DNA of 64,000 bases from Puniceicoccaceae bacterium (GTDB taxonomy: Bacteria > Verrucomicrobiota > Verrucomicrobiia > Opitutales > JAFGAQ01), in the NCBI GenBank assembly GCA_028285755.1, contig JANQOQ010000015.1:1-64000 (forward strand), read 5' to 3'. The notes under the pieces are model-generated. The model was not told where the DNA came from. It worked only from the letters and a program-made list of their open reading frames with translations, and ran no database searches. Every line of letters starts with the position of its first letter. Positions within the stretch are counted from its first letter, which is position 1. Of this stretch, positions 2,600-55,372 are shown one piece after another. Position numbers and translations under genes: made by a program.

Positions 2600-4090
2600 A
2601 TGTATAAATATCTTCTATTTCTAAGCTTTTCCCTATTGGCGAAACTAAATGCGTTCGCTTCTGAAAAGCCGAATTTTCTTTTCATCATCACGGATGATCA
2701 GAGTTACGAGACGGTAGCTGCACACGGAAATGCCGGGATCCACACGCCAAACATCGATCGTTTGGCCGAACTAGGAGTCAGTTTTAAGAACACCTATAAC
2801 ATGGGAGCGTGGAATGGTGCTGTCTGCATAGCATCCCGGACCATGCTGATTACAGGCAAATCGGTTTGGAGGGCCAGAGACGCTGAAAACAACCTTAATC
2901 AATCCGCTGAAAGGGGTGAGTTATGGCCTCAATTGTTGGCCAAAAACGGATACGAAACCTACTTTACAGGGAAGTGGCACGTCAAAATTGATCCGAAGCG
3001 GGTTTTTGATTTTCATCTGAATGAACGCCCGGGAATGCCCGCCGATAGCTGGATGCAAAATATGAGGGGAGTTTCCAATCGAACACCAGAGATGATCGCA
3101 TCTCTGGAAGGGTACAATCGACCTCTGGCAGGGGAGCCGGATATTTGGTCGCCTTACGAACGCGGGTTCGGCGGATTTTGGGAAGGCGGTAGGCATTGGA
3201 GTGAGGTCTTAGCCGACGATGCGACCCATTTCCTGCAGAACGCGGCAAAAAGCGATAAGCCCTTTTTCATGTATCTTGCATTTAATGCACCGCACGATCC
3301 GCGTCAGGCCCCTAAGCGCTTCGTCGATATGTATCCATGGGAAGAAGTGAATGTACCGGAGAGTTATCAACCCAGCTATCCTTATAAGGACGAGATCGGA
3401 TGTTCATTCTCGTTGCGTGACGAGGCTCTGGCACCATTTCCTCGTACTGAATATGCAGTAAAAGTACATCGTCAGGAATACTACGCGATGATTACTCACA
3501 TGGACGAACAGATTGGTCGTATCCTTAAGGCCTTGAAGGAGACGGGAAAGCAGGATGACACTTATATCATCTTCACCTCGGACCATGGATTGGCTTGTGG
3601 GAACCACGGCTTGCTCGGCAAACAGAATATGTATGAACACAGTATGAAACCTCCGCTTATCGTTGTGGGGCCAGACGTGCCGGAAAATGAAAAACGAGAT
3701 GCGCTCGTTTACTTACAGGATGTTATGGCGACGACGCTTGATTTGGCGGAAGTTGAAAAGCCCGGTTATGTGGAGTTCAATACTTTGATGCCCTTGATAA
3801 AGGATGCTGAATCCGAGAGTGCTTACGGCTCCATTTACGGATGCTATCGCAGGGATGATCAGCGGATGATTCGTGTTGAGGATATGAAGCTAATCGTGTA
3901 TCCAAATGCCAACCGAATTAGACTATTTGATTTAAACTCGGATCCAAATGAAATCAGAGACCTATCGGGAGATCCGACTCGTTGGCCTGAGATTCGAAAA
4001 CTCTTCAATCATTTGCTCGAGAAGCAAGTGAAAATGGGGGACGAGCTTCAACTGGCTTCGCTTTTTCCTGACTTGCTGACCTCGCATTGA
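2600..4090 (+). CDS. exported sulfatase (S1 family, CxAxR-type)
   Basis: A signal peptide (about 21 residues, ending AFA) precedes a classic S1 sulfatase start, EKPNFLFIITDDQ, whose paired aspartates bind the calcium. The residue converted to formylglycine is Cys in VCIASRTMLITG near residue 76; the motif is C-x-A-x-R rather than the common C-x-P-x-R. GKWHVK near 123 and the later TSDHGLACGNHGLLGK near 330 supply further substrate- and metal-binding residues. It hydrolyses sulfate esters, presumably from a sulfated fucan or related glycan, given two fucosidases upstream and two sulfatases downstream. The maturation enzyme (FGE or anaerobic sulfatase-maturing enzyme) is not in the window. The precise S1 subfamily is unknown. 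Confidence 0.92.
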   Translation: MYKYLLFLSFSLLAKLNAFASEKPNFLFIITDDQSYETVAAHGNAGIHTPNIDRLAELGVSFKNTYNMGAWNGAVCIASRTMLITGKSVWRARDAENNLNQSAERGELWPQLLAKNGYETYFTGKWHVKIDPKRVFDFHLNERPGMPADSWMQNMRGVSNRTPEMIASLEGYNRPLAGEPDIWSPYERGFGGFWEGGRHWSEVLADDATHFLQNAAKSDKPFFMYLAFNAPHDPRQAPKRFVDMYPWEEVNVPESYQPSYPYKDEIGCSFSLRDEALAPFPRTEYAVKVHRQEYYAMITHMDEQIGRILKALKETGKQDDTYIIFTSDHGLACGNHGLLGKQNMYEHSMKPPLIVVGPDVPENEKRDALVYLQDVMATTLDLAEVEKPGYVEFNTLMPLIKDAESESAYGSIYGCYRRDDQRMIRVEDMKLIVYPNANRIRLFDLNSDPNEIRDLSGDPTRWPEIRKLFNHLLEKQVKMGDELQLASLFPDLLTSH

Positions 4091-4134
4091 TATTAACTAC
4101 TGCTTACTTTGTCTAATAACTACAAAAACTTAAC

Positions 4135-5736
4135 ATGAATAGAGTCATCCCATTCCTCTTACTATTAATCTTCACCCATGTTGGCCATGCAGAGCAATCG
4201 ATTGGGAAACCAAATATTATACTGATAGTTGCCGATGATATGGGTTGGAAAGATCTCGGTAGTAGCGGGAGCAGTTATTACAAGACACCCCACCTGGATG
4301 CACTTTCAGGCGGTGGTATGCGTTTTACCCATGCTTATTCGGCAGCTGCAGTATGCGTACCTTCAAGAGCTGCGTTGCTAACAGGTAAGACACCTTCGCG
4401 CCTTAAACTCACCAATGTATTTGCAGGACCTCCTGCTTCGGATGATGGGCTCTATGACATAACCAAGCAAATTGGCCTGGGTAACCAAAATCTCGAAGCG
4501 AAGCAACGGCTCACTCTGGCCAGCACGGAGACCTTACTACCGGAATTACTAAAGTCTGCGGGCTATGCGACCGCATTTTATGGAAAATGGCATTGTGGCA
4601 TTCAGGAAGGCTATCGTCCGGAACAACGAGGATACGATATTGCCAAGGGTTATTTCTTAGTGGCAGATCGTTTATTGCACAAAGACTATCTTGGTGAAGA
4701 GAGACACTATCTCAATGAAGAGAGCGTTGAGTTCTTAGCCAACATGCCTCAGGCCCGGGTGGGTGACTTTCTTGAAGACTTGATGGCAAGGGATGCGTGT
4801 GAATTTATTCGCGAGCATAGTGATGAGCCGTTTTTTCTGCATTACTCAAGTCATCTCGTGCATACGCCTATCATTGCGAAAAAGACGCTATTAAGTAAAT
4901 ACAAGCACAAGACAGGTTTAGATCAAAACAATCCGGAATATGCCACAATGGTTGAAGCAGTCGACCAGACTGTTGGGGCAATCGTCAAAACACTCAGAGA
5001 ACTCGATCTCATTGATAACACTTTGATCATCTTCACATCTGATAATGGCGGACTGACATTACGCAATATAACCTCCAACTATCCTTTGATGGGGGGAAAA
5101 AGCTCTGCATACGAGGGGGGCTATCGAGTGCCCTTTATTGCGCATTGGCCAGGCACTATCCGCCCCGGAAGTATAAACCAGACCCGTATCAGTGGAATAG
5201 ATGTCTACCCAACTTTCCTTGAGGTAGTCGGCATACCTATAAAAAATGCAGCTGAGATTGATGGAATGAGCCTATGGGGGGAAATGACAGGCTCTGGCTC
5301 CTTGCCGGGTAGGCCTTTATTTTTCCATTTTCCACATTACACGCACGCCACCTCTCCTCACTCCATTGTTATTTATCAAGGATGGAAACTCATACGCTAT
5401 TATAATGATGCGGAGGGTCGTTTCCTGCTTTTTAACTTAAATACCGATCCTCAAGAGCAATTCAACCTAGCAGATGAAGAGCCGGACACCCTTAAGTTAC
5501 TGGATAAGCGTCTTACGCACTACTTATCAAATGTAGATGCTCAAATGCCAATCCCTGCGGATAGTCCGGAAGGTCTAGAGCTCATCGAGAGATATAAGGA
5601 AGGAAAAATCAAAGGAACTATCAGGCAAGCATCTGAAGGCTCTATTAAAAACCTTAAGACTGAACGGGATCTGGCCTTACAGGAGAGAAAGGTTCAGGAA
5701 GACAAGCTGACGGTATCCATTAAGGCAACACATTGA
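4135..5736 (+). CDS. exported sulfatase (S1 family)
   Basis: The 533-residue protein has a signal peptide (ends GHA, about residue 19), then KPNIILIVADDMGW with the calcium-binding aspartates. The activation motif is VCVPSRAALLTGKTPSR near residue 79 (C-x-P-x-R). YGKWHCG near 147 and TSDNGG near 302 are typical of arylsulfatase A-like S1 enzymes. The last about 45 residues are charged and helical, possibly a short coiled tail not usual for the family. It is the second of three consecutive sulfatases, 44 bp after the previous gene, and probably co-transcribed. Substrate is inferred to be a sulfated, fucose-containing polysaccharide. Confidence 0.93.
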   Translation: MNRVIPFLLLLIFTHVGHAEQSIGKPNIILIVADDMGWKDLGSSGSSYYKTPHLDALSGGGMRFTHAYSAAAVCVPSRAALLTGKTPSRLKLTNVFAGPPASDDGLYDITKQIGLGNQNLEAKQRLTLASTETLLPELLKSAGYATAFYGKWHCGIQEGYRPEQRGYDIAKGYFLVADRLLHKDYLGEERHYLNEESVEFLANMPQARVGDFLEDLMARDACEFIREHSDEPFFLHYSSHLVHTPIIAKKTLLSKYKHKTGLDQNNPEYATMVEAVDQTVGAIVKTLRELDLIDNTLIIFTSDNGGLTLRNITSNYPLMGGKSSAYEGGYRVPFIAHWPGTIRPGSINQTRISGIDVYPTFLEVVGIPIKNAAEIDGMSLWGEMTGSGSLPGRPLFFHFPHYTHATSPHSIVIYQGWKLIRYYNDAEGRFLLFNLNTDPQEQFNLADEEPDTLKLLDKRLTHYLSNVDAQMPIPADSPEGLELIERYKEGKIKGTIRQASEGSIKNLKTERDLALQERKVQEDKLTVSIKATH

Positions 5737-5906
5737 CAAGGAGATAACTAGCCTATTGTGCCGATAAGAATTTAGTATTAGATTACACTATGAATACTTA
5801 AACTCTGTGATTCTGTAATATGCCCTATTCTCTAGTGCAGAGTTTAAATTAAGATGCTTTTCAAAAACCTCAAATTGATTACCGAAGATTAAAAACCTTT
5901 AAGGTT

Positions 5907-7373
5907 ATGACTGAAAACACATTATATAAGTTATTGTTTAATAAATACATACGTAAAATTGGCTTAATATGTATTCTGCTGTTTTGCAGTTCCCTTATCA
6001 TGTGGGCGGGCACTGGCAACGCTCTCAGTAGTGTAGGCAAGCCTAATATCATCCTCATCATGACAGATGATCAGGGATGGGGGGATACCGGCTATAATGG
6101 GCACCCCCATTTAAAGACTCCGAATCTTGATAAAATGTCCAGAGAGGGCATTACCTTTACGCGATTTTATTCAGCAGCGGCCATGTGCTCGCCGACACGA
6201 GCCAGTGCTTACCTGGGCCGACATCCATATCGTACGGGTATAACCTTTGCGATGAAGGGCATGCTCGAGGAGCATGAAATACCGATAACCACTTTTCTCA
6301 AAAAGGCGGGTTATACGACGGGGCATTTTGGCAAATGGCATATGGGCACGCTTTCAAAAGAGCAGGGAGACCAGAGAAGATGGGGCGAATTCGCCAGAAC
6401 CCCTGAGAGGTATTACTGCCCACCCTGGGATCGGGATGTGGATGTAAGTTTTGTCACAGAATCAAAGGTGCCCACATGGGATCCACTCATCCATCCGGGC
6501 AAAATCATGGAGCGTGAAACGGATGAAGAGAAGGGTTTAAGCTATGGGAATGAATTTTTTACCGGACCCGGGGTAACCGTCACTGAGAATATGGAAGGAG
6601 ACGCATCGCGGGTTGTCGTGGATCGGGTCATACCCTTTATCAATAACGCGGTCGAAACTGATACACCGTTTTTCGCGGTTGTTTGGTTTCATACTCCCCA
6701 TTCGCCGGTTGTCGGCGGTGAGAAATACATGCAAATGTATGGGGAGCATCCCATCGATGTACAACATTACTATGCGTGCCTCACTGCTATGGATGAACAG
6801 GTTGGGCGCTTACGGGCCCAATTGGACAACCTGGGTGTTGATGAGAACACAATGATATGGTTTTGCTCGGATAATGGCCCTGCCCGACAGAACTCCCCAC
6901 GACACCATGGTATAACCAACGGATTATCCGGTTATAAATTATCAATCAACGAAGGCGGCATACGTGTGCCGGGATTACTGGTGTGGCCGGCAATGGTGAA
7001 AAAGCCTTTCACGATAGAGGCTCCTGCGGTTACGACGGACTATTTGCCAACCGTTCTCGATGTGCTTGATATTCCGCTGCCGGATGACCGTATTTATGAT
7101 GGCATAAGCTTATTGCCACTTATTCAGAAGGAAAAAACTACCCGTGATTCTCCCATCGGATTTCTGAACAGAGAGGGTACTGAGTCTGCCTGGATGAAGG
7201 ATCGGTATAAACTCCTGGTAGATTCAAGTGGAATCCAGCTCTATGATATTCAGAATGACCCTGCAGAAAGTACAAATCTATCCAGCCAATACCTGGAAAA
7301 AACAGCTAACATGTTAAACGATTTACTCAACTGGAAAACCGGAGTTATGGATGAGTTAAACCAGCTGGATTAA
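5907..7373 (+). CDS. exported sulfatase (S1 family)
   Basis: A long basic n-region and a strong hydrophobic stretch (about residues 17-35) form a signal peptide or anchor, followed by KPNIILIMTDDQGWGDTGYN. The formylglycine motif is MCSPTRASAYLGRHPYRTGI near residue 92 (C-x-P-x-R). FGKWHMGTL near 148 and CSDNGPAR near 318 complete the S1 core. It follows the previous sulfatase after 170 bp, which is longer than inside a tight operon, so it may have its own promoter. The ATG at 5907 is chosen because it gives a complete signal sequence. Resembles arylsulfatase A-like enzymes, with unknown substrate. Confidence 0.92.
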   Translation: MTENTLYKLLFNKYIRKIGLICILLFCSSLIMWAGTGNALSSVGKPNIILIMTDDQGWGDTGYNGHPHLKTPNLDKMSREGITFTRFYSAAAMCSPTRASAYLGRHPYRTGITFAMKGMLEEHEIPITTFLKKAGYTTGHFGKWHMGTLSKEQGDQRRWGEFARTPERYYCPPWDRDVDVSFVTESKVPTWDPLIHPGKIMERETDEEKGLSYGNEFFTGPGVTVTENMEGDASRVVVDRVIPFINNAVETDTPFFAVVWFHTPHSPVVGGEKYMQMYGEHPIDVQHYYACLTAMDEQVGRLRAQLDNLGVDENTMIWFCSDNGPARQNSPRHHGITNGLSGYKLSINEGGIRVPGLLVWPAMVKKPFTIEAPAVTTDYLPTVLDVLDIPLPDDRIYDGISLLPLIQKEKTTRDSPIGFLNREGTESAWMKDRYKLLVDSSGIQLYDIQNDPAESTNLSSQYLEKTANMLNDLLNWKTGVMDELNQLD

Positions 7374-28644: not shown

Positions 28645-30126
28645 ATGTTTTTGGTGACTGAGTACAATCGATCGGTTCTATTGGGGGCTGCAATTCTATT
28701 GATTTGCCAGCTCACTGCGGAAACGGTGCGTGAGCGCTACAATGTGCTGTTTCTGATCATTGATGATGCGAGCCCAGTGCATCACAGTGTTTTTCAGGAG
28801 AGCCCGGTTCTGACGCCCAATCTGCAGAGACTGGCAGACTCCAGTGTCTGGTTTTCAAGGGCGTATACCCACCCGGCTTGCAATGTTTCACGTATGTCCT
28901 TTCTGAGCGGATTACGCCCCTCAACAACTGGGGTTTACTATAATGGGCAATCCATGCGATCCGATGAAAGGTATGGCGGGGTGGAGACTATCCCCGAACG
29001 GTTTAAGGCAGAGGGATATCTCACCGCAGGCTATGGCAAGGTATTCCATAATGGTTATCATGATCTAGAAGTGGGCAGCTTTTCAGAGGGTTATTTTGTG
29101 CCTTACTCCAGCGAGTCTGAGAAACAACTGGTCAGGCAATACCCCATTGAGGACTCCGTGATCGCGATTCCCGGTGGGCCAGGCAATTATACCTTTGGTG
29201 TGCTCTCTGATGATTGGGATCGGGACGATCCTGAAAAAATGCAGCAGGATACCGTGAATGCGAATCTAGCGATTGAGTTTCTGGAATCTGAGCATGACCA
29301 ACCCTTCTTTTTGGCCTATGGTAGCTGGCGACCGCATGTTCACTGGACGGTGGCGCAACGCTATTTTGATAGGTATCCGCTGGAAGACATCAAAATTCCT
29401 GAGGGTTTCAAAGGGGACGATCTGGAGGACTTGCCAAAACCGGGCAGGTGGATCGCCAATCAAAGGGGCACCCATAACCGTGTTGTGAGAAACGGGCTCT
29501 GGAAACGTATGTTGCAGGGACTTTATGCGGCTACCACGTATGCGGATGAGCAAATCGGTCGTGTGCTCACTGCCTTGGATAACAGCCCCTATAAAGACAA
29601 TACGATTGTGGTATTTCTTGCGGATAACGGTTGGCATACCGGGCAAAAGTATCACTGGTCGAAATACACGCTCTGGGATCAGGCCACGCGCGTACCGATG
29701 GCGATTCGTGTGCCCCATATGGAGCCACAGGTGGTCAACAGCGCGGTGAGTTCACTGGATATTTATCCTACGCTCATGGAGCTTACAGGCATGGATGGGC
29801 CCAAGGGTCATGAGCTCGAAGGTACCGATTTGACGCCCATACTGAAAGGTGAGATTAGTGATCGGGGTAGACCTGTGGTCATCACATACGGTTGGCAGAA
29901 CCATGCGGTGATTAACGATCGTTTTCGTTACATTCGCTATCAGGACGGCAATGAAGAGCTTTATGATCATTGGAATGATCCCCATGAATGGCATAACCTG
30001 GCGACCAATGAGTCTTATCGTTTGGTTATGGACAATATGATGAATGCCCTGCCAACAATAAATCGCGAAGGCATACCATTTACTGGAAGAATCGTAAATA
30101 CCTTCTTACCGGAAGCCTTTGAGTAA
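28645..30126 (+). CDS. exported sulfatase, iduronate/choline-sulfatase-like, with CxVxR motif
   Basis: The ATG at 28645 is preferred to the upstream TTG at 28618 because it starts directly before a signal sequence (LLGAAILLICQLTAE). The S1 core begins NVLFLIIDDASP. The motif to be converted to formylglycine reads ACNVSRMSFLSGLRPSTTGVY: the Cys and Arg are in place, but valine stands where Pro or Ala is usual. GYGKVFHNGYH, FLADNGWHTGQKYHWSK and the PHEWHNLA end are as in iduronate-2-sulfatase-like enzymes. Followed by another sulfatase, which is probably co-transcribed. Whether the enzyme matures normally is uncertain. Confidence 0.88.
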   Translation: MFLVTEYNRSVLLGAAILLICQLTAETVRERYNVLFLIIDDASPVHHSVFQESPVLTPNLQRLADSSVWFSRAYTHPACNVSRMSFLSGLRPSTTGVYYNGQSMRSDERYGGVETIPERFKAEGYLTAGYGKVFHNGYHDLEVGSFSEGYFVPYSSESEKQLVRQYPIEDSVIAIPGGPGNYTFGVLSDDWDRDDPEKMQQDTVNANLAIEFLESEHDQPFFLAYGSWRPHVHWTVAQRYFDRYPLEDIKIPEGFKGDDLEDLPKPGRWIANQRGTHNRVVRNGLWKRMLQGLYAATTYADEQIGRVLTALDNSPYKDNTIVVFLADNGWHTGQKYHWSKYTLWDQATRVPMAIRVPHMEPQVVNSAVSSLDIYPTLMELTGMDGPKGHELEGTDLTPILKGEISDRGRPVVITYGWQNHAVINDRFRYIRYQDGNEELYDHWNDPHEWHNLATNESYRLVMDNMMNALPTINREGIPFTGRIVNTFLPEAFE

Positions 30127-30175
30127 AGATGAATTTGTATTTACTATAACTCAGGTTTTAGTATTGATTTTTAAC

Positions 30176-31969
30176 GTGTACCCCAAAGGTAAATTCCTCA
30201 TCTTAATGGCGATTTCGCTTCTGTTCTCTGTTCTGCTGCAGGCGAAGCCCATGAATATAATCTGGATTGTCATAGAGGACGCTTCGGCTCATATCAGTTG
30301 CTACGGTGAAACGGCGATTGAGACTCAGAATATAGACCGCATGGCGGAGGAAGGGATTCGTTTCACCAAAGCATTTGTAACCAGTCCGGTGTGTTCACCC
30401 AGCCGCTCGGCGATGATCACTGGCATGTATCAGATGACACTCGGTGCGCACAACCACCGGAGCCAAAAAAGGCAGGGCAAGGGCATGGGAGGGCCTAGAT
30501 ATTATACGAGCTATCCTGCGCCGGTTAAGCTCATCCCCGAGCTCTTCAGTGGGGCTGGCTATTACGTGACGAATAAGTCCAAGACTGACTATAATTTCAT
30601 ATCACCCGATAATCTTTATGATGGCAGCGAATGGCAAAAGGCAGAGCCTGATCAACCCATTTTTGCCCAATTTCAGCTGCGTGGAGGCAAAAACCGTAAA
30701 GCTCCCAGCTATGCCGATCCTGCTGAAGTTGAGTTACCGCCTTATTATCCAGACGATCCCGTGATACGTCAGGACTGGGCGAAGTATTTGGACTCGTGGG
30801 TGCAGACGGATAAGGAGGTAGGGCAAATTCTGGCGGAGCTGGATGCTGCAGGCAGGCTCGAAAATAGTGCGGTGTTCCTGTGGACAGATCATGGGGTCAG
30901 CCATTTACGGGGTAAGCAGTATTTATATGAGGAGGGGATCCATGTGCCGCTCGTAGTCCGAATATCGGGAGAGCAGCAAGCGGGGGTGATGAGGCATGAT
31001 TTGATCGAGCATATAGATATTGCGGCAGCTTCCCTGGCTCTGGCCGGTATTGATATTCCGGGTTATATTCAGGGGCGTGACTTTCTGGCTAAAGATCACC
31101 TGCCACGCAAATACGTCTTTTTCGGGCGTGACCGTTGTGATGAAACGGTGGATATCATCCGTGGGGTTCGGGACGAACGCTTCAAGTATATCCGCAACTT
31201 CATGTCGCATGTATCCCATACGCAGCCGAATGCGTATAAAGACAAAAAGGAAATACTGATAGCCATGCGCGAGCTGCATGCAAAAGGGGAGCTCAACGAA
31301 CTGCAATCCCGTCCGTTTGAGCTACGCCGGCCGCCTGAGGAGCTCTATGATTTGGAGAATGACCCCCATGAAACGGTTGATCTGGCTACCGATCCTAATT
31401 ATCAGGATCACCTGGTTGCGATGCGTGAGCTAACCTATTCACGTATGTTGGAAGTGCGGGATATGGGGTTGATTCCCGAACCCATTCTTGAAGATATCGG
31501 TCGTGAAGTGGGAACTAAATACCACGCTTTCCTCAATACAGATAGCTCTGCGCAAACGCAACGCCTAATTAAGGTAATTACAGCAGGTGAGGCGAATGAT
31601 ACAGATACTCTATTGGAATATGCACAATCCCAGGATGCTTCGACGCGCTATTGGGCAGCCGTGTGGTTCGGCGTGAACCAAACTGAATCTGCAAAAAGCA
31701 TACTTGAGGTTTTATTGGCGGATGAGACATCTGCGGTTCGTGTCGCGGCTGCACAGGCTTTGGTGAAGTTTGGGGACCCAAGTCACATAAAGCTATTAAT
31801 CGATCACATCAATGATCCCAACTATCTTGTCGGGATGTATGCGATACGCGCCATCGAGGAACTCGGTGATTTGGCTAAATCCTACCAAGCAGAAATAGCA
31901 GCTGCCCAGGATTCTCCTTATGAATTCACCCAGCGCATCGCTCAACGACTGATAAGCGACTGGGAGTAA
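30176..31969 (+). CDS. exported sulfatase with C-terminal HEAT repeats
   Basis: The frame opens at 30119, but a signal peptide is best formed from the GTG at 30176 (basic start, then FLILMAISLLFSVLLQA); the ATG at 30206 is the alternative. The S1 core follows with MNIIWIVIEDASAHISCYG, the activation motif VCSPSRSAMITGMYQ, and WTDHGVSH. After the sulfatase domain (to about residue 465 from this start) come three to four helical HEAT-like units (for example STRYWAAVWFG and SAVRVAAAQALVKFGD). The repeat region is a likely protein- or glycan-binding scaffold. The N-terminal part resembles heparan N-sulfatase-type S1 members. Probably co-transcribed with the sulfatase upstream. Confidence 0.88.
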   Translation: MYPKGKFLILMAISLLFSVLLQAKPMNIIWIVIEDASAHISCYGETAIETQNIDRMAEEGIRFTKAFVTSPVCSPSRSAMITGMYQMTLGAHNHRSQKRQGKGMGGPRYYTSYPAPVKLIPELFSGAGYYVTNKSKTDYNFISPDNLYDGSEWQKAEPDQPIFAQFQLRGGKNRKAPSYADPAEVELPPYYPDDPVIRQDWAKYLDSWVQTDKEVGQILAELDAAGRLENSAVFLWTDHGVSHLRGKQYLYEEGIHVPLVVRISGEQQAGVMRHDLIEHIDIAAASLALAGIDIPGYIQGRDFLAKDHLPRKYVFFGRDRCDETVDIIRGVRDERFKYIRNFMSHVSHTQPNAYKDKKEILIAMRELHAKGELNELQSRPFELRRPPEELYDLENDPHETVDLATDPNYQDHLVAMRELTYSRMLEVRDMGLIPEPILEDIGREVGTKYHAFLNTDSSAQTQRLIKVITAGEANDTDTLLEYAQSQDASTRYWAAVWFGVNQTESAKSILEVLLADETSAVRVAAAQALVKFGDPSHIKLLIDHINDPNYLVGMYAIRAIEELGDLAKSYQAEIAAAQDSPYEFTQRIAQRLISDWE

Positions 31970-46322: not shown

Positions 46323-47747
46323 ATGAAAAAGCGATTCCCCATTCTCCTGTTAAGTTTAATCCCGGTTGTTTTATTTGCAGTAAACAACTCTGATGCTGAT
46401 CGCATTCAGCCCTGGTCTGAGAATCCTTTTTATTGGCAGTATCGGGGTGAGCCCGTGTTTTTGCTTGGGGGTTCTGAAGATGATAACTTGTTCCAATATG
46501 AGGGGCTCAAAGCTCACCTGGATGAGATGATCGAAGTCGGGGCCAATTTTGTTCGCAACACCATGAGTTCGCGCAATCTGGATAATACCCCCAGTGGACT
46601 TTACGCATTTAAGCAACAGCCATCCGGCAAATACGATTTGAATGAGTGGAATGAGCTCTACTTTGAGAAATTGGATCAGCTTCTGAAGTGGACTTACGAG
46701 CGGGATATTTTTGTGCAAATCGAATTTTGGGATCGTTTTGACTACTTTGGCGATAATTGGGCAGTCTCCCCCTGGAATCCAAAAAATAATACGAATTACT
46801 CCAGTGAAGAATCGAGCTTACCCATTGAGTATACCCCATCCAGAAGCGCCTATGCTGAAAAAGAGAGTCCTTTTTTTCAAACAGTGGTGCCGCTGGAGAA
46901 TAATCAAGGGGTGCTGAAATTTCAGGAAATGTGGGTCCGCAAAATTCTGGATGTCGCCTTTAAATATCCGCATGTGACTTATTGTATATCCAATGAGACT
47001 CACTCTTCCGAGCCTGAGTGGAGCCACTATTGGGCGGAATTTGTAAGAATGGAAGCGAAAGCACAAAATGTAAGTATTGAAGTAACGGAGATGCCCTGGC
47101 AGATCGATTTCACGCATCCGGAGCACAAGCGTGTTTATGACAGGCCCGATCTTTTTTCGTACAGTGAGGTGTCCCAGCTCAGCGCCAGCAATGGCAACAC
47201 TCACTGGGAGTTACTGCTGTATTATCGAAATGTGATTCAATCGCAGGGTGTTTGGCCTTTAAATGCCGTGAAAACTTACGGTTCCGTGAATTTCTCGGGG
47301 GGTATCATGGGGAGTAATCAGGACGCGATCGAAAAGTGTGTGCGCAGCATTATGGGAGGGCTGGCTTCCTTTCGCTTTCATCGTACGCCCTATGGAATCG
47401 GGCTGAATAAAGAGGCTAAGCAATGCATCGAAGCGATGCGGCTCTTAGAGCAGGAGGTGCGTTTTTGGGAGCTTGAACCTATGAAAGAATCTTTCCCGAT
47501 TTCGAATACCCGCTCTTATGCATCCACTTTCGGAGAAGGAAATTATCTCCTGTATTTTCCGACAGGGGGAAGTATAGAGCAATTGCCTTTTATCAAGGAT
47601 GAACCTCAGAATTATGAGATACGGTGGTTGAGCGTTGATTTTGGGGATTGGTATGGAGCTGCTGAGCCGGTGAATGCGTCCAATATGGATTCACCGCGCA
47701 GAGGCTCCGGTAATTGGGTTGCCCTTATCACGGAACGATCAGACTAG
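46323..47747 (+). CDS. exported TIM-barrel glycosidase-like protein
   Basis: A 474-residue protein with a signal peptide (MKKRFPILLLSLIPVVLFA). The chain begins PFYWQYRGEPVFLLGGSEDDN, the usual first strand of DUF4038/apiosidase-like barrels, and contains YPHVTYCISNETHSSEPEW near residue 225, which carries a likely catalytic glutamate. EVTEMPWQIDF and SYSEVSQLS are later strands. A short C-terminal beta domain follows. It probably cleaves a glycosidic bond, but I cannot assign a GH family. Divergent from the deaminase operon, and ends inside a convergent gene by 4 bp (47744-47747). Confidence 0.72.
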   Translation: MKKRFPILLLSLIPVVLFAVNNSDADRIQPWSENPFYWQYRGEPVFLLGGSEDDNLFQYEGLKAHLDEMIEVGANFVRNTMSSRNLDNTPSGLYAFKQQPSGKYDLNEWNELYFEKLDQLLKWTYERDIFVQIEFWDRFDYFGDNWAVSPWNPKNNTNYSSEESSLPIEYTPSRSAYAEKESPFFQTVVPLENNQGVLKFQEMWVRKILDVAFKYPHVTYCISNETHSSEPEWSHYWAEFVRMEAKAQNVSIEVTEMPWQIDFTHPEHKRVYDRPDLFSYSEVSQLSASNGNTHWELLLYYRNVIQSQGVWPLNAVKTYGSVNFSGGIMGSNQDAIEKCVRSIMGGLASFRFHRTPYGIGLNKEAKQCIEAMRLLEQEVRFWELEPMKESFPISNTRSYASTFGEGNYLLYFPTGGSIEQLPFIKDEPQNYEIRWLSVDFGDWYGAAEPVNASNMDSPRRGSGNWVALITERSD

Positions 47748-48919: not shown

Positions 48920-49008
48920 AGTGAGGCTATTGTGAGACTGAGTGCAGGCGGATCAAAGTTATTTTGCAAAAAAGTTGTCAACGCCTGGGATGCGTTCGTA
49001 ATGAAAAC

Positions 49009-49617
49009 ATGGCAGTAGACATACAGGGAATCGCCTTTGACTGGGGTGGAGTGCTCATCGAAAATCCGGCCCAGGCGATTGCCGATTGGATACTCAACCA
49101 CACGGGAATATCGCCTGAATTCATGAAGCACCTTCCCGAGGATTTGCTTGTGAAATTCCAGAAGGGGCAGGTTTCTGAAGAGGAATTCTGGGATAGTGTG
49201 GAGACTGAGCTTGAGCTCAATATATCCACTAAAACGGGTCTATGGCGTTCAGCTTTTGAGGCTTCATACTTACCGCAAGGCGCGATGTTTGATCTGGTTG
49301 CTCAAATACAGAAAAAGGGGCTGCGAACCGCGATCCTCTCGAATACGGAGATGCCGGCGGTGCATTTCTTCCGTGAGCAGAACTATTCGCAATTTGATAT
49401 CGAGCTGTTTTCCTGTGAGCTGGGTATGGCCAAACCGGATCGGGATATCTACGAAGCAGCAATAGAAGTCTTTGGACTGGTGCCCGAAAAAATCGTGTTT
49501 ATCGACGATAAGCCTGAGAATATTGAAGCCGCTCGGGTTTTGGGGATGCGTGGCATTGTATTTGGAACGGAGGAGCAGGTTCGCGGAGAACTACGCGAGC
49601 TGGGTTTGCAGGCATAA
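49009..49617 (+). CDS. HAD-superfamily hydrolase (subfamily IA)
   Basis: From the ATG at 49009 the protein has 202 residues; the open frame reaches back to 48964. Motif I reads IAFDWGGVLIENP: the nucleophile aspartate is present, but the second aspartate of D-x-D is replaced by glycine, as in a YihX-like branch. AILSNTEMP (motif II), a lysine in GMAKPDRDIYE (motif III) and VFIDDKPENIEAA (motif IV) complete the site. A cap domain spans about residues 15-85. Likely a phosphatase with a small sugar phosphate or nucleotide substrate. It is divergent from the ABC ATPase gene and followed by a bidirectional terminator. Confidence 0.85.
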   Translation: MAVDIQGIAFDWGGVLIENPAQAIADWILNHTGISPEFMKHLPEDLLVKFQKGQVSEEEFWDSVETELELNISTKTGLWRSAFEASYLPQGAMFDLVAQIQKKGLRTAILSNTEMPAVHFFREQNYSQFDIELFSCELGMAKPDRDIYEAAIEVFGLVPEKIVFIDDKPENIEAARVLGMRGIVFGTEEQVRGELRELGLQA

Positions 49618-49649
49618 AAAAAGCGCGATCCATTTAGATCACGCTTTTT
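49616..49649. terminator. bidirectional rho-independent terminator
   Basis: An imperfect stem (AAAAAGCG-C-GATC / GATC-A-CGCTTTTT) with a six-base loop between the convergent HAD and Cys-rich genes, A-rich on the left and T-rich on the right. Confidence 0.85.
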
Positions 49650-49669
49650 GAAAGATTCTTTAGAAGGCA

Positions 49670-50323
49670 TTAGTGGCTGTGTCCATGCCCATGCCCATGT
49701 CCGTGTCCGTGGTCATGATCATGCTTTTTACCTTTTTTGCCACCGCACTTGCCGCAACATTTGGCCTCTTCGTCTCCGCCGCATTTGCCACAGCATTTCG
49801 CTTCTTTATCACACTCGCCGCAACACTTCTTGTCCTTGCCACACTCACCGCAGCACTTTTTCTCGTCGCCACCGCATTTACCGCAGCAGGACTTGGCTTC
49901 TCCACACTTGCAATCTTTGCATTTGCAGTCTTCACAGGAGCAGCCTTTCTTCCCTTCGCCGCCGCATTTGCCACAGCACTTGGCTTTTTCATCGCCACCG
50001 CACTTGCCGCAACATTTGCTTTTCTTGGCTTCTTTACAGCATTTGCCATCGGTCCCGCAGCATTTCTTTTCGGATTTGCAGCAGTTACCGTCAGTTCCAC
50101 AGCATTTTTTGGCTTCCTTGCAACACTTGCCGTCTTCGCCACAGCACTTAGGCTTCTTTTCTTCCTCAGCGGCCGCTTGTTCAGCTGCTGCCGCAGCACA
50201 GCATGGTGGCAATGGATCTTCGTCATCACTCGCATGACTGCTCGCCCAACTTACTGTAGACATCATTGCTACCAGGGACAGACACAGCACCACGAATGAG
50301 AGTTTTTTACTCAATTCTTTCAT
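49670..50323 (-). CDS. exported Cys-rich repeat protein with polyhistidine-type tail (candidate metal binder)
   Basis: A 217-residue protein with a signal peptide (about residues 1-27, ending VSWA). The mature chain has 41 cysteines, mostly as CC pairs. Three repeats of CCGxDGxCC occupy about 60-98, two repeats of CCGKCGG about 104-122, a CSCEDCKCKDCKC core 128-140, and five repeats of CCG(K/E)C about 146-195. The last 17 residues hold nine histidines (HDHDHGHG...). Lysine, glycine, glutamate and aspartate fill the rest. I know of no named family with this plan. The likely role is binding of soft and transition metals outside the cytoplasm. It is transcribed alone between the HAD gene (convergent) and the aminopeptidase. 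Confidence 0.85.
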   Translation of the reverse strand: MKELSKKLSFVVLCLSLVAMMSTVSWASSHASDDEDPLPPCCAAAAAEQAAAEEEKKPKCCGEDGKCCKEAKKCCGTDGNCCKSEKKCCGTDGKCCKEAKKSKCCGKCGGDEKAKCCGKCGGEGKKGCSCEDCKCKDCKCGEAKSCCGKCGGDEKKCCGECGKDKKCCGECDKEAKCCGKCGGDEEAKCCGKCGGKKGKKHDHDHGHGHGHGHGHSH

Positions 50324-50410: not shown

Positions 50411-51646
50411 TTACATCGCCCATTCGCCCTGTTTCATGACTGAAATACGCGTACCATCTGCCTGAATTCCATCGATATCCAGAGCATCGTGGCCGATCAT
50501 AAAATCCACATGGGTAAGGCTATTGTTCCCGCCTGCCTCATTGAATTCTTCCTCAGTCATTTCTTTCCCGCCCTTGAGTGTGAAGCGATATGCTTTGCCC
50601 AAAGCAATGTGGCTGGCAGCGTTTTCATCGAAGAGGGTATTGAAAAAGAGTAGGCCGGAATCTGAGATGGGTGAGCGATGCGGGACTAGAGCGATTTCGC
50701 CGAGTTTCGAGGCACCGGCATCGGTATCGATGAGCTTTTGCAGGGTCTCCTGCCCCTGGGCGGCCTGGATTTCCACGGCTTTGCCGGCCTCGAATCGCAC
50801 GCTGAAATCGCTGATTACAGTACCCCCGTAATTCAGAGGTTTGCTGGCCTTAACGATCCCCTCTGCACGGTCCTTGTGCGGTAATGTAAAGACTTCCTCA
50901 GTCGGCAGATTTGCTACAAAGGTAACGCCTGAAGCTGCAACGCTGCCTCCCGACTTCCAGATGTGGCCTTTGGGCAAACCTACTGTGAAGTCTGTTCCGC
51001 CCCCGGTATAATGCAGGGCGTCGAATGCATAATCATTTAATTTTTTACTATGGCTTTCCAGATTATCCAAATGTGCCTGCCAGGCATCAATGGGGTTCTC
51101 CCGGTCCACGCGGCAGGTTCTGAAGATTTCATCCCAGAGTTTTGCCATGGCATCTTCTTCACGTAAACCGGGGAATACTTTGCCCGCCCAGCCGGGTACC
51201 GGTACGGAGATGACGACCCAGGGAATCTTATCACTCATGGGATATTGCATGAACTCAGCCATGTGCTCCTGCGCCGATTTAATCGCCATCGAAATATTAT
51301 CCTGGTTTTGATCCTTGAGCAGGTCGGGGTCCGTCCCGCTGATTTTGATAAACGCATCGCCCCGCTTTGCACACTCGAGGAGTGCGCTGGCTTCCCATTC
51401 TGCATAGGTGGAAAAACTGCCTGAAGGCGCATTTTCAAAACGCGTGAGGCTGAGTTGGTCGTCATGATACATGACCGAGACCAGGGGAGAGCCTGCCTGA
51501 TAGGCGGATTTGGCGATCGCATTGACCAGCTGGCTGGATTCTATGGGGGCACGGACCAATACCCTTTGTCCGGGTTGTATATTGACTCCGACTTTTACGG
51601 CGAGTTCTGCGTAAGCATTGAGCTTTTCATCAAACGTTTTCGACAT
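50411..51646 (-). CDS. aminopeptidase, M29 family
   Basis: A 411-residue metallopeptidase (ATG at 51646; the open frame runs to a TTG at 51652). The start NIQPGQRVLVRAPIESSQLV is a hallmark of M29 (aminopeptidase T/S/PepS), and later DALHYTGGGTDFTVGLPKG and LTHVDFMIGHDALDIDG carry metal ligands. Cytoplasmic, no signal peptide. It removes N-terminal residues from peptides with broad specificity and needs divalent metal. It stands alone, downstream of the trmB transcription unit, which ends in a strong terminator. Confidence 0.92.
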   Translation of the reverse strand: MSKTFDEKLNAYAELAVKVGVNIQPGQRVLVRAPIESSQLVNAIAKSAYQAGSPLVSVMYHDDQLSLTRFENAPSGSFSTYAEWEASALLECAKRGDAFIKISGTDPDLLKDQNQDNISMAIKSAQEHMAEFMQYPMSDKIPWVVISVPVPGWAGKVFPGLREEDAMAKLWDEIFRTCRVDRENPIDAWQAHLDNLESHSKKLNDYAFDALHYTGGGTDFTVGLPKGHIWKSGGSVAASGVTFVANLPTEEVFTLPHKDRAEGIVKASKPLNYGGTVISDFSVRFEAGKAVEIQAAQGQETLQKLIDTDAGASKLGEIALVPHRSPISDSGLLFFNTLFDENAASHIALGKAYRFTLKGGKEMTEEEFNEAGGNNSLTHVDFMIGHDALDIDGIQADGTRISVMKQGEWAM

Positions 51647-51708
51647 AAACAAAGCGATATTGCTTAAAATGGTTTATGCAACTGCGTTTCTGCTATTGTA
51701 TTTTTACA

Positions 51709-51741
51709 AAAAAAAGGCGAGCCCGCCAAGGCTCGCCCTTA
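51709..51741 (-). terminator. rho-independent terminator of the cysE-trxB-yjbQ-trmB unit
   Basis: Stem GGCGAGCC / GGCTCGCC (51716-51723 and 51730-51737), six-base loop, followed on the - strand by eight T residues. It lies 83 bp past the trmB stop. Confidence 0.92.
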
Positions 51742-51823
51742 TTTTACCAACGCTTATATAATTTGTACCTCGCTTACAATTAGCGGTCGAAGCGGGTTTG
51801 TATTAAATGGTTTTTACAAATAA

Positions 51824-52438
51824 CTATTTTTTTACAGTGGCGGAGAGGGATTGATAGCTGCTCATCAGGTCTTGAAAGAAAGTTGTATTCTCCATTGGCC
51901 ATTCGGTGGGGTTATCGATTATCCAGCTAGGGTGCCCGGTGATTATTTCCGTGCTCCATGCAAAGTAGTTTTCATGATCCGTGCGAAAGTAGAGCTTGCC
52001 ATGTTCAGCCATGAAATTGGCAACTTGACTTAAAAAGGGGTGCTGTATCAGGCGATTTTTATAATGGCGTTTTTTGGGCCAGGGATCCGGAAACAGGATG
52101 ATAACTTTTTGCAGCTGTGCCGATTTCGGGAGGATTTCAAGAAACTCTCCTGCCTCTGCCTTGATGAAATGCAGGTGTTTCAATCTCCGTTTGTCCGCCT
52201 TGGTACAGGCTTTATGGATACGAGCCCCATGAATATCAATCCCGATACAGGGGGTAGTTGGATTTTCCATGGCGTAAGCCGTTAGCCAATGCCCATGTCC
52301 GCAGCCGATTTCGAGTACCCCGTCGAAACGATCTAGCAGCTCCCCATATTCCTGTGTGAGTGTTTCCTTGCGGGCTGCTTGTTTGACAAGTTCGCGTTTC
52401 AGCCCTTCAGGAATATCCGCCTGCCCGGAAGCTTCCAT
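51824..52438 (-). CDS. trmB: tRNA (guanine-N7-)-methyltransferase TrmB
   Basis: A 204-residue SAM-dependent methyltransferase that makes m7G46 in tRNA. GVLEIGCGHGHWL (about 37) binds SAM, and FPDPWPKKRHYKNRL (about 112) is the diagnostic catalytic loop of TrmB. FRTDHENYFAW follows, also diagnostic. Length is at the short end for bacterial TrmB. It starts directly after the YjbQ gene stop (no gap) and is the last gene of a four-gene unit. Confidence 0.95.
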   Translation of the reverse strand: MEASGQADIPEGLKRELVKQAARKETLTQEYGELLDRFDGVLEIGCGHGHWLTAYAMENPTTPCIGIDIHGARIHKACTKADKRRLKHLHFIKAEAGEFLEILPKSAQLQKVIILFPDPWPKKRHYKNRLIQHPFLSQVANFMAEHGKLYFRTDHENYFAWSTEIITGHPSWIIDNPTEWPMENTTFFQDLMSSYQSLSATVKK

Positions 52439-52858
52439 TTATTCACCTAGTAAGGTAACCAATACAAAGCGGGTATGCGGGATAGCCCGGTGCTCCCATA
52501 GATACAAGCTTTGCCAGGTGCCCAGCTGAAGCTTGCCGTCCGTGAAGGGAATTGCCTCGCCGCTACGGGTCAACGCCATCCGAATGTGGCTCGGCATGTC
52601 ATCTGGCCCCTCGAGTGTATGCTGAAAATAGGGTTCGTTTTCGGGCACGAGACGCTCCATATACGCCTCTAAATCTGCACGTGAAGCAGGGTCCCCATTT
52701 TCCATAAGCACCAGACTGCAGCTGGTGTGCTGGCAAAATATGGAGGCGATGCCGTTCTTAAGTTCCGACTTTGCCAGGACATTCTGAACATCGCGGGATA
52801 TATCGTATGTGCCCTTGCCCCGGGTATTGAAAGTTAAGCGTTCCTGAAAAAAACTCAT
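52439..52858 (-). CDS. YjbQ-family (UPF0047) protein
   Basis: A 139-residue protein of the UPF0047/YjbQ family. FCQHTSCSLVLMENGDP and the late GTWQSLYLWEHRAIPHTRF match the family signature; in E. coli this protein has secondary thiamine-phosphate synthase activity. Beta-barrel-like, cytoplasmic. It lies between trxB (6 bp upstream) and trmB (no gap), in one transcript. Confidence 0.9.
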   Translation of the reverse strand: MSFFQERLTFNTRGKGTYDISRDVQNVLAKSELKNGIASIFCQHTSCSLVLMENGDPASRADLEAYMERLVPENEPYFQHTLEGPDDMPSHIRMALTRSGEAIPFTDGKLQLGTWQSLYLWEHRAIPHTRFVLVTLLGE

Positions 52859-52864
52859 TGTAAA

Positions 52865-53812
52865 TTATTGTTCGGCGAGCCAGCGCTCTGCTTCGATCGC
52901 GGCCTGGCAGCCCATGCCCGCTGCGGTGATTGCCTGGCGGTATTTATGGTCTGCGCAATCCCCTGCGACAAAAACCCCGGGAACGTTCGTTAATACCTGA
53001 CTGCCATTCTCAGGAATAAAGTAGCCTTCGTCATCGAGAGTCAATTTGCCCGCGAACGGTTGAGTATTGGGTATATGCCCGATCGCTATGAATAGCCCCT
53101 TGATCGCAAGCTCTCCGGCTTCGCCAGTGACGGTATTCTGAGTATTGATTGATTTGAGTTGGCCGTTTTCATCTTCATTGGCGGATACTGGGATGGTGTT
53201 CCAGAGAACTTCGATCTTCTCATGATTAATTGCACGGTCGGCCATGATCTTGGAAGCCCTGAGCTCATCCCTGCGGTGCACCAGATAAACTTTTGAGCAG
53301 AAGCGGGTCAGGAAGAGCGCTTCTTCGCAGGCAGAGTCACCCCCACCGACTACAGCAACTTCCATATCGCGGTAAAACGCACCGTCGCAGGTTGCACACG
53401 TGGTTACCCCTTTGCCACCGAACATTTGTTGCTCACCGGGTATGCCGAGCAGGCGCGGGGAGGCTCCGGTTGCCACAATCAGTGTGTCTGCTTCGTAGGT
53501 GCGTGAACCTGCTTTTAAAATCTTCTTGGGGCCATCCAGCTCAACGGATTCGATGAGGTCGTTTGCGAACTCGGTGCCAAAGCGTGCGGACTGTTTGCGC
53601 AGATTATCCATGAGCATGAAACCATCCACCCCTTCAGGGAAACCGGGGAAATTCTCCACCTCGGAGGTCGTAGTGAGCTGCCCGCCCGGTTGCTTACCCT
53701 CAATGACGAGCGGATTTAAGTTTGCGCGGGCGGTATAAATAGCAGCGGTGAGCCCTGCGCAGCCGCTCCCCAAAATGATTACGGTTTTCTGGATGGTAGA
53801 GTTTTCAGACAT
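52865..53812 (-). CDS. trxB: thioredoxin-disulfide reductase
   Basis: From the ATG at 53812 the protein has 315 residues; the open frame begins with a GTG at 53875 inside the end of cysE and is less likely. FAD-binding [18 protein letters not shown] starts the chain, the redox pair is [11 protein letters not shown] (C-x2-C, about residue 140), and [14 protein letters not shown] binds [21 protein letters not shown] closes the FAD domain. It reduces thioredoxin using NADPH. It lies between cysE and the YjbQ gene. Confidence 0.96.
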
Positions 53813-53871
53813 GTTTGTTTGTGTTTGTATATGGTTTATTGGGGTTAACGTAGGCAGCGTGTAGATTGATT

Positions 53872-54660
53872 TCACTCAATCCGGTGGTCGACGCATAGTG
53901 CAGGCACGTCATCCAGGCTTTCGGCGGTTTTGGTCACTTTGCCCGGCACGCCTACTACGGTAGACATGGGGGGGATATCATTGAGCACCACGCTGTTTGC
54001 TCCAATCTTTGAGCAGTGGCCGACAGTGATATTGCCCAGTATTTTGGCACCGGCTCCGATGAGTACCCCGTATTCGATTTTCGGGTGCCGTTCACCGCTT
54101 TCTTTACCGGTTCCGCCCAGAGTTACTCCCTGGAAGATGGATACCTGATCTCCAATAACGGTCGTTTCACCTGCAACAAAGCCGGTGGCGTGGTCGAGCA
54201 TGACCCCTTTACCGATGGTGGCCGCCGGGTGAATATCAACTCCGTAGAATTCAGAAATCAGACTTTGCAGATGCAGAGAGAGTTCTTCCTGCTCCTGTTT
54301 CCAGAGTTTGTTGGCGATTCGGTAGCCAGTAATGGCTTTAAACCCTTTGTAATTTAGAAGAGGGTTAAAGTGGTTTTTGCACGCCGGATCCCGCTCGAAA
54401 TAAGCAATGATGTCTTCAACGATGCTCGCAACGAGGGCTTCATCGTCCTGGAGTGTTTTGAGAAACACATCCCTGAGATAGTCCTCCCCATTACGCAAAA
54501 AATTAAGCTTTTCAGAGAGATTGCACGCGATGACCTCGATTAGGGATTCGTAGCGCAGGAGCCTGGCTTCAAGCCAGAGGCTTAGTACCGGCTCGCGCTC
54601 AATGGCTATTTCAGCTTCTTGTCGCAGCTTTTGCCAGATTTCTGTGGTTGGATCACTCAT
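53872..54660 (-). CDS. cysE: serine O-acetyltransferase
   Basis: A 262-residue enzyme that makes O-acetylserine from serine and acetyl-CoA, the first step of cysteine synthesis. The N-terminal helical domain (residues 1-135) is followed by a left-handed beta-helix with the catalytic stretch [18 protein letters not shown] and [20 protein letters not shown]. The C-terminal tail (ALCVDHRIE) may bind cysteine for feedback inhibition. First gene of the cysE-trxB-yjbQ-trmB unit. Its end overlaps only the upstream-extended trxB frame, not the chosen start. Confidence 0.95.
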
Positions 54661-54772
54661 ACAGGCTAAAACTATACAATGAATGGACTAAATAATGCGA
54701 ATGCAAATTGAAATTAGGGTTAAGCCCATTTCAATTTTGGATATACCAAATACACACAATCGAGTCTAGCTT

Positions 54773-55372
54773 ATGAAAACACTTACTTTAGCAGTTGTTG
54801 CGACTATCGCGGGGGCCTTTATGGCCAGCGCAGCCCTGACTACAGGGGAAAAGGCACCTAACTTCACCGGAACCGATGACACGGGAGCCTCTCACCAGTT
54901 GTCGGATTTCAAGGGAAAGTATGTAGTATTGGAATGGCTAAACCATGGATGCCCATTTGTTAAGAAGCACTATAATTCAGGCAACATGCAGGCCCTCCAG
55001 AAGGAATTGACTGAGCAGGGGGTTATATGGCTTGGCATCGTATCCAGCAAAGAAGGTGCTCAGGGATATATGACCGCCCAAAAGTCCACTAAAACCCGGG
55101 CAGATAAGGATAAGTCGGCTACGGCCATTCTATTGGACAAGGATGGTACGATCGGTCGTCTCTACGGGGCTGTAGCCACACCGGAGATGTTTGTGATCGA
55201 TCCAGAGGGCATTCTCATCTACCAGGGAGCGATTGACAGTATCAGCTCTACGCGTGAGTCTGATATTCCGAAGGCGACCAATTACGTGCTTGCAGCCTAC
55301 AATGCGCACGTCAATGGGGATCCCATCGCTAAAACGGACACCAAGCCTTACGGTTGTTCCATTAAGTATTAA
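54773..55372 (+). CDS. exported redoxin (AhpC/TSA-type thioredoxin fold)
   Basis: A 199-residue protein with a signal peptide (about residues 1-20, ending ASA). APNFTGTDDTGASHQLSDFKGKYVVLEW leads to NHGCPFVKKHYNSGNM with a single conserved cysteine, as in peroxiredoxin-like redoxins. VIDPEGILIYQGAID is the late strand with the cis-proline region just before it (ATPEMFVID). It is probably a periplasmic redox protein. Divergent from cysE. A last cysteine near the end (GCSIKY) may be the resolving residue. Confidence 0.88.
   Translation: MKTLTLAVVATIAGAFMASAALTTGEKAPNFTGTDDTGASHQLSDFKGKYVVLEWLNHGCPFVKKHYNSGNMQALQKELTEQGVIWLGIVSSKEGAQGYMTAQKSTKTRADKDKSATAILLDKDGTIGRLYGAVATPEMFVIDPEGILIYQGAIDSISSTRESDIPKATNYVLAAYNAHVNGDPIAKTDTKPYGCSIKY

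Follow-up and report, generated by a model that had tools for sequence, protein, structure and literature searches.

A cysteine-repeat protein with a histidine tail in a Puniceicoccaceae genome: a candidate metal buffer outside the cytoplasm

Gene and protein organization

The gene described here lies on the minus strand of the window, the whole 64,000-nucleotide stretch that was analysed, where it runs from an ATG at 50323 to a stop codon at 49672-49670 (50323..49670) and encodes an exported protein of 217 amino acids. The signal peptide, MKELSKKLSFVVLCLSLVAMMSTVSWA (residues 1-27, 50243..50323), was read by eye and ends in an SPase-I-like S-W-A site at which cleavage was judged in the same manner; the cysteine at position 14 is outside any lipobox, and the protein as a whole has none. 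If cleaved after A27, the mature chain comprises 190 residues. It begins with an acidic, alanine-rich linker that includes the first CC pair (residues 28-59, 50147..50242), followed by three 14-residue CCGxDGxCCKxxKK modules (residues 60-101, 50021..50146) and a series of CCGxCGG-type modules (residues 104-195, 49739..50014) with the segment CSCEDCKCKDCKC (residues 128-140) inserted among them. The chain closes with the histidine tail HDHDHGHGHGHGHGHSH (residues 201-217, 49673..49723).

The protein contains 42 cysteines, of which 41 belong to the mature chain and the remaining one to the signal peptide, and 10 histidines, nine of which fall in the tail and thus within the last 25 residues. Motif counting gives 14 CC, 9 CxxC and 3 CxC arrangements, with five copies of CCGKCGG and three of CCGxDGxCC. 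The mature chain (pI 8.1) has no aromatic residues and a single residue of the ILVMFWY set among its 190, so it has no hydrophobic core, and a normal core would be impossible without metal or disulfides. The initial annotation had placed the gene at exactly these positions without naming a strand, and its description of a signal peptide, a mature chain of about 190 residues with 41 cysteines, CCG-type repeats and a nine-histidine tail agrees with this reading. The combined thiol-rich and histidine-rich exported layout that it proposed is likewise borne out, and the composition would be compatible with a metal buffer.

The gene is present in a single copy in the 4.25-Mb genome of its host, a member of the order Opitutales (Verrucomicrobiota). 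It has an 87-bp leader of its own, and its transcription may be independent of the upstream genes; at this gene, an Rfam search found no leader or riboswitch and a sigma-70 scan found no promoter-like site. On the same strand, between the gene and its convergent neighbour, folding reveals an intrinsic-terminator-like hairpin (49614..49650, approximate ends; fold z = -3.6, with 0 of 200 shuffles folding equally well), and the automatic terminator scan reported none at the gene.

Several measures bear on whether the reading frame is genuine. Cysteine accounts for 19% of the protein compared with 0.9% of the pooled window ORFs longer than 150 amino acids, and with those ORFs as background the binomial probability of finding at least 42 cysteines in 217 residues is 5e-42. 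A DNA pattern built from the two modules matches three times in the window and in none of 100 dinucleotide shuffles. Tandem Repeats Finder (TRF) detects only short imperfect stretches in the repeat region. Together with the identical peptides that are written in different codons, this indicates that the repeats are not a product of DNA slippage. Pairwise comparison of the CCGxCG copies gives 44 synonymous and 5 non-synonymous codon differences, an excess that is biased because the copies were chosen by motif. An overlapping plus-strand ORF of 208 amino acids (49673-50299) was considered and set aside, being the hydrophobic antisense of Cys, Lys and Gly codons with no independent support.

Genomic context

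Upstream on the same strand lie genes for serine acetyltransferase (SAT), TrxB, YjbQ, TrmB and an M29 aminopeptidase, of which TrxB and YjbQ were named by eye. The aminopeptidase is the immediate neighbour (50411..51652, minus strand; PF02073, E = 4e-160) and is 66% identical to its counterpart in G002, a genome from another genus of the family. The convergent downstream neighbour is a HAD-family hydrolase (48964..49617, plus strand; PF00702) that occupies the same place in G002, and beyond it lies an ABC ATPase. G002 keeps the order SAT-TrxB-YjbQ-TrmB-M29-X-HAD-ABC, where X stands, in matching orientation, in the slot of the Cys-repeat gene (L058:8259-8750, plus strand) and encodes an exported protein of 163 amino acids with VAKAxxCAKT repeats, a KPACCG near its end and no histidine in its mature form. 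In both genera, then, this position is taken by an exported Cys-repeat protein. The comparison covers G002, since G001 and G004 have different neighbours or contig ends at this point.

The X protein has no Pfam or NCBIfam match. When it is aligned to the window protein, 565 of 1000 shuffles reach the alignment score, so that the similarity is no better than composition and only the position is shared; common descent of the two proteins is not backed by this test.

At window positions 50411-55372, the block from the serine acetyltransferase to the aminopeptidase is accompanied by a divergent gene for an exported AhpC/TSA redoxin, an arrangement that at least two genera of the family share and that forms a thiol-metabolism cluster beside the Cys-rich exported protein. 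No metal transporter, sensor, regulator or resistance operon adjoins the Cys-repeat gene or those of its small relatives (see below) whose surroundings were read. Elsewhere in the window, an exported protein of 474 amino acids (46323-47747, plus strand) looks glycoside-hydrolase-like by eye (FQYEGLKAHLDEMIEVGANFVRNTMSSRN) and has no Pfam match at E<0.001. Multiple sulfatase-like genes of the PNIILIVADDMGWKD type, also recognized by eye, occur at 2600-7373 and 28645-31969 (plus strand), and they suggest degradation of sulfated polysaccharides.

Homology searches

The 217-residue protein was compared with collections of families, structures and genomes. A Pfam scan at E values up to 10 returned no family, including the profiles for PF02069, DUF2282 and OmcA/OmcB. 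NCBIfam gave nothing above cut-off, its sole weak match being ZraP (E 0.19) over the signal peptide and linker, and phmmer against the PDB returned nothing. A protein search in 52 relatives produced no homologue at E <= 0.001, and no close homologue was found in about 600 genomes of the phylum or by pattern search in 388 phylum genomes. Scanning GTDB contigs with degenerate, idiosyncratic peptide patterns of the protein likewise yielded no relative, and a plasmid tblastn search yielded none. Literature searches on exported bacterial metallothioneins turned up no description of a layout joining Cys repeats to a His tail.

Small lipoproteins that share the modules

A looser search in 273 genomes of the order identified a family of lipoproteins of 54-55 amino acids in genus g44 (L002, L004, L005 and L006), for example MKNLLLILGVLSIGLFSSCGGGSHDHDCCGECGGESECCGKCGGDKADEGNASE; the His/Cys stretch of L002 is SHDHDCCGECGGESECCGKCGG. 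The two-module DNA pattern was then scanned over GTDB contigs, which gave 17 stretches whose credibility was judged by frame, export signal and layout. The credible matches are the g44 proteins; L036, a Verrucomicrobiales lipoprotein with a CCGxCGG-type module; L043 from Phycisphaeraceae, with three modules, a GHGHDHG segment and the His/Cys stretch GHGHDHGAKCCGKCDG; L031/L075 from Akkermansiaceae (MKKFLVLLSAGLAFALSSCCATGNCGGGKCSKAKSECCGKCGGEKKKECCGKCGGAHTHAEK, with CCGKCGGEKKKECCGKCGGAHTHAEK as the His/Cys part of L075); and L046 from Planctomycetota, in which the Cys modules are inside a larger protein with a segment that looks EF-hand-like by eye. L033 is weakly credible. Nine other matches (L034, L035, L037-L040, L044, L045 and L047) looked like chance matches, wrong-frame readings or unrelated Cys-rich frames and were dropped, as was L048 from a viral contig.

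A profile (A1) built from six small lipoproteins was run over 388 Verrucomicrobiota and 392 Planctomycetota genomes. Its matches at E<0.1 were mostly to signal peptides or random cysteines, and only exported ORFs with CC modules were kept, which added L079/L082 from genus g187, L081 and a tandem paralogue beside L043. The L079/L082 protein (MKKLLILGVLLFAAVGCNSCGHDGDHSHADGKECCGKDGKCCKK) has the His/Cys stretch GHDGDHSHADGKECCGKDGKCCKK and carries one copy of the CCGxDGxCC module type.

The gene at L079:1501-1635 and L082:1501-1635 encodes a 44-amino-acid lipoprotein (mature form CNSCGHDGDHSHADGKECCGKDGKCCKK) that is shared by two species of a single verrucomicrobial genus; the gene stands alone, with neighbours that differ between the two genomes. 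The Phycisphaeraceae genes L043:1524-1769 and L109:1149-1334 are tandem genes for small Cys lipoproteins, with three CCGKC copies plus GHGHDHG and with CKSSCCGSCGGDAAKACPAGCDKPCCKKA, respectively. A further exported protein (L143:5707-6423, minus strand) joins an N-terminal CC-repeat segment, TCCTKAQKPAQSCCTKAKKQNKSCC, to a C-terminal domain that has no Pfam match.

Module-bearing lipoproteins thus occur in other Opitutales, Akkermansiaceae, Verrucomicrobiales and Phycisphaeraceae, with the modules in one to three copies alongside a short His stretch. The small lipoproteins are 44-67 amino acids long, have a lipobox and contain 6-11 cysteines in the mature form, and the CCGxCGG-type module is present in the four g44 proteins, L036, L043 and L075. 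In some of these proteins the His stretch precedes the modules and in others it follows them; as it adjoins the same modules in L079/L082, L043, L002 and L075, the coupling of Cys modules to histidine recurs. L079 and L082 differ by 14 synonymous codon changes and one conservative non-synonymous change (dN 0.009, dS 1.0, dN/dS about 0.01), and the g44 pairs show dN of 0.01-0.10, dS of 0.06-2.9 and dN/dS of about 0.03-0.14. This strong purifying selection indicates that the small proteins are products of functional genes.

In local alignments to the mature window protein, the scores of L002, L036, L043 and L075 are attained by 0 of 1000 composition-preserving shuffles and that of mature L079 by 0-3 of 1000, in a test that is partly circular because most of the small relatives were found by the motif. 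Subject to that circularity, the residue order in the small relatives appears to match that of the window protein beyond composition. The modules of the 217-residue protein and of the small lipoproteins would then share common descent, or convergence on a simple metal-binding motif could instead account for the likeness. The large protein shares modules, histidine and export with the lipoprotein set, and differs from it in exceeding the set's size range (<70 amino acids), in having no lipobox and in carrying about ten modules compared with one to three.

Discussion

The 217-residue protein is probably a soluble metal buffer that resembles metallothioneins in an expanded form, offers thiol and imidazole ligands and acts outside the cytoplasm. 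The Sec pathway would export the chain, which has no hydrophobic core, and release it in soluble form into the periplasm or outside the cell. There, the 41 thiols in CC, CxC and CxxC arrangements would bind soft metals such as Cu(I), Zn, Cd and possibly Hg or Ag, and the resulting metal-thiolate clusters would give structure to an otherwise coreless chain. The His tail may add extra or second-class sites for Cu(II), Zn or Ni, and the whole would work as a metallothionein or metal sponge beyond the cytoplasm. Such a protein may have originated by multiplication of CCGxDGxCC and CCGxCGG, the modules that relatives carry one to three times on tiny membrane-anchored lipoproteins. We infer metal binding from composition, and the identity of the metals, the location and the buffering role are predicted on the same kind of grounds. 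In favour of this reading, the classes of Cys motif are metallothionein-like, and metallothioneins typically lack aromatics, as this chain does. Counting against it, the periplasm is usually oxidising and free thiols there tend to form disulfides, and no metal-linked gene lies next to this gene or next to those of the small relatives that were inspected. The serine acetyltransferase, thioredoxin reductase and exported redoxin nearby would suit a role in thiol redox no less than one in metal handling.

The strongest competing reading is that of an envelope or matrix protein with a structural role, whose extracytoplasmic cysteines are crosslinked into a disulfide mesh, the repeats serving as crosslink points and the His tail being minor. 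Chlamydiae, which belong to the same PVC superphylum, have exported Cys-rich outer-membrane proteins (OmcA/OmcB) that crosslink in this way, and disulfide-linked envelopes are known among PVC relatives. An exported, repetitive, coreless protein rich in Lys, Cys and Gly would suit such a mesh, as would the nearby thioredoxin reductase and exported redoxin, and the different, His-free Cys-repeat protein in the slot of the sister genus is what would be expected if cysteine density alone matters. However, vicinal disulfides are rare, and 14 adjacent CC pairs together with CCxxC point to metal clusters more than to crosslinks; the lipoproteins, themselves too small for a mesh, again pair the Cys modules with a His stretch. 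The window protein also has no Pfam family match and differs in layout from OmcA/OmcB, which are not known to have CCGxCGG modules or a His tail. A mesh is an unlikely account of the protein. An exported thiol redox buffer or store, kept reduced by the thioredoxin system and the peroxiredoxin-like protein encoded nearby and shielding the envelope from oxidants, would draw on the same neighbourhood, in which the order from SAT (cysE) through the Cys-repeat protein to the HAD hydrolase is kept in two genera and the exported redoxin diverges from SAT. This is quite improbable, given that TrxB and SAT are cytoplasmic enzymes, that reading the window by eye turned up no electron carrier of the DsbD kind, that the gene has its own leader and may be transcribed separately, and that the His tail would be left unexplained.

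Two further readings have little in their favour. A composition artefact or a decaying low-complexity sequence without function would agree with the occurrence of the protein in one genome, with no close homologue recovered by the pattern and degenerate-peptide searches, yet this is very unlikely in view of an intact frame of 217 codons with a signal peptide and a terminator-like hairpin, the use of different codons for the same peptide motifs, the purifying selection on the same modules in relatives and the presence of an exported Cys-repeat protein at the corresponding position in the sister genus. The signal peptide and repeated G-K-C-G also recall the Buf_EGKCG/oxazolin precursors (PMC12452194), in which case a modified, copper-binding RiPP like the bufferins and oxazolins would be made from the protein, an MNIO converting its cysteines before export. 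This reading, which is hardly credible, was rejected by a genome search for PF05114: no MNIO was found in the 97%-complete genome, and the same search was positive in Caulobacter and Deinobacterium controls. Nor was an MNIO found in G002, in the g44 genomes or in the relatives from Akkermansiaceae, Verrucomicrobiales and Phycisphaeraceae, and among the genomes of relatives it was found only in the planctomycete G603, on another contig. Bufferin-type precursors are very rare in genomes without an MNIO (PMC12452194); with none in this genome, the protein falls outside the bufferins despite its reminiscent layout.

The metal-buffer reading can be placed among known systems. Bacterial metallothioneins of the SmtA/BmtA/PmtA kind (PF02069) are not known to have an export signal. 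The window protein resembles them in being Cys-rich, in its CC, CxC and CxxC motifs, in having histidine among its putative ligands and in its lack of a hydrophobic core, and it would act alike. They are 55-79 amino acids long with 8-10 cysteines (PMC8636135), whereas the window protein has 190 mature residues and 41 cysteines, is exported, consists of tandem modules with a separate His tail and does not match their profile. Bufferins and the Buf_EGKCG/oxazolin proteins are exported and Cys-rich, have G-K-C-G repeats and buffer metals in the periplasm, some Buf_EGKCG proteins being fused to EF-hands (PMC12452194). The window protein shares with them a Sec signal peptide (by eye), the richness in cysteine and the G-K-C-G repeats, and the planctomycete L046 similarly joins Cys modules to its EF-hand-like segment; unlike bufferins, the window protein lacks the EGKCG string and any DUF2282 match, and most relatives, like this genome, lack an MNIO. 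SilE uses His and Met rather than cysteine, in contrast to the Cys-based window protein, for which Pfam and NCBIfam gave nothing above cut-off. The window protein has an export signal and no core, and with the multi-metal binding predicted here it would parallel SilE, a periplasmic metal sponge described as exported, disordered and able to hold several metal ions (PMC5008109).

The initial annotation had named no described family with this layout and had suggested a new class of extracellular or periplasmic metal buffer. The first point stands, as Pfam, NCBIfam and the PDB gave no match. The second stands in part: the protein fits no described family, but its modules also occur in small exported His/Cys lipoproteins of several PVC lineages, which makes it an enlarged representative of a loose, so far undescribed group and not a class standing by itself. 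The metal-buffer interpretation offered there is accordingly plausible and partly supported, if slightly too exclusive.

It is plausible that the protein is an undescribed form of the thiol/imidazole metal-buffer design, linked to tiny PVC lipoproteins that are easily overlooked because of low-complexity filters and their short length. More tentatively, PVC bacteria might possess an extra-cytoplasmic metallothionein system of their own, in which tiny His/Cys lipoproteins with CCGxDGxCC or CCGxCGG modules have given rise to large soluble sponges in some lineages, without MNIO modification. The modules are simple enough for testing as synthetic peptides. The bacterial metallothioneins described to date are small proteins confined, to our knowledge, to the cytoplasm, and it is with MNIO-modified bufferins that the buffering of periplasmic copper by Cys peptides has until now been associated. 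If the proposed role is true, an unmodified modular thiol/imidazole buffer acting outside the cytoplasm would represent a different way to retain soft metals in a compartment that is oxidising.
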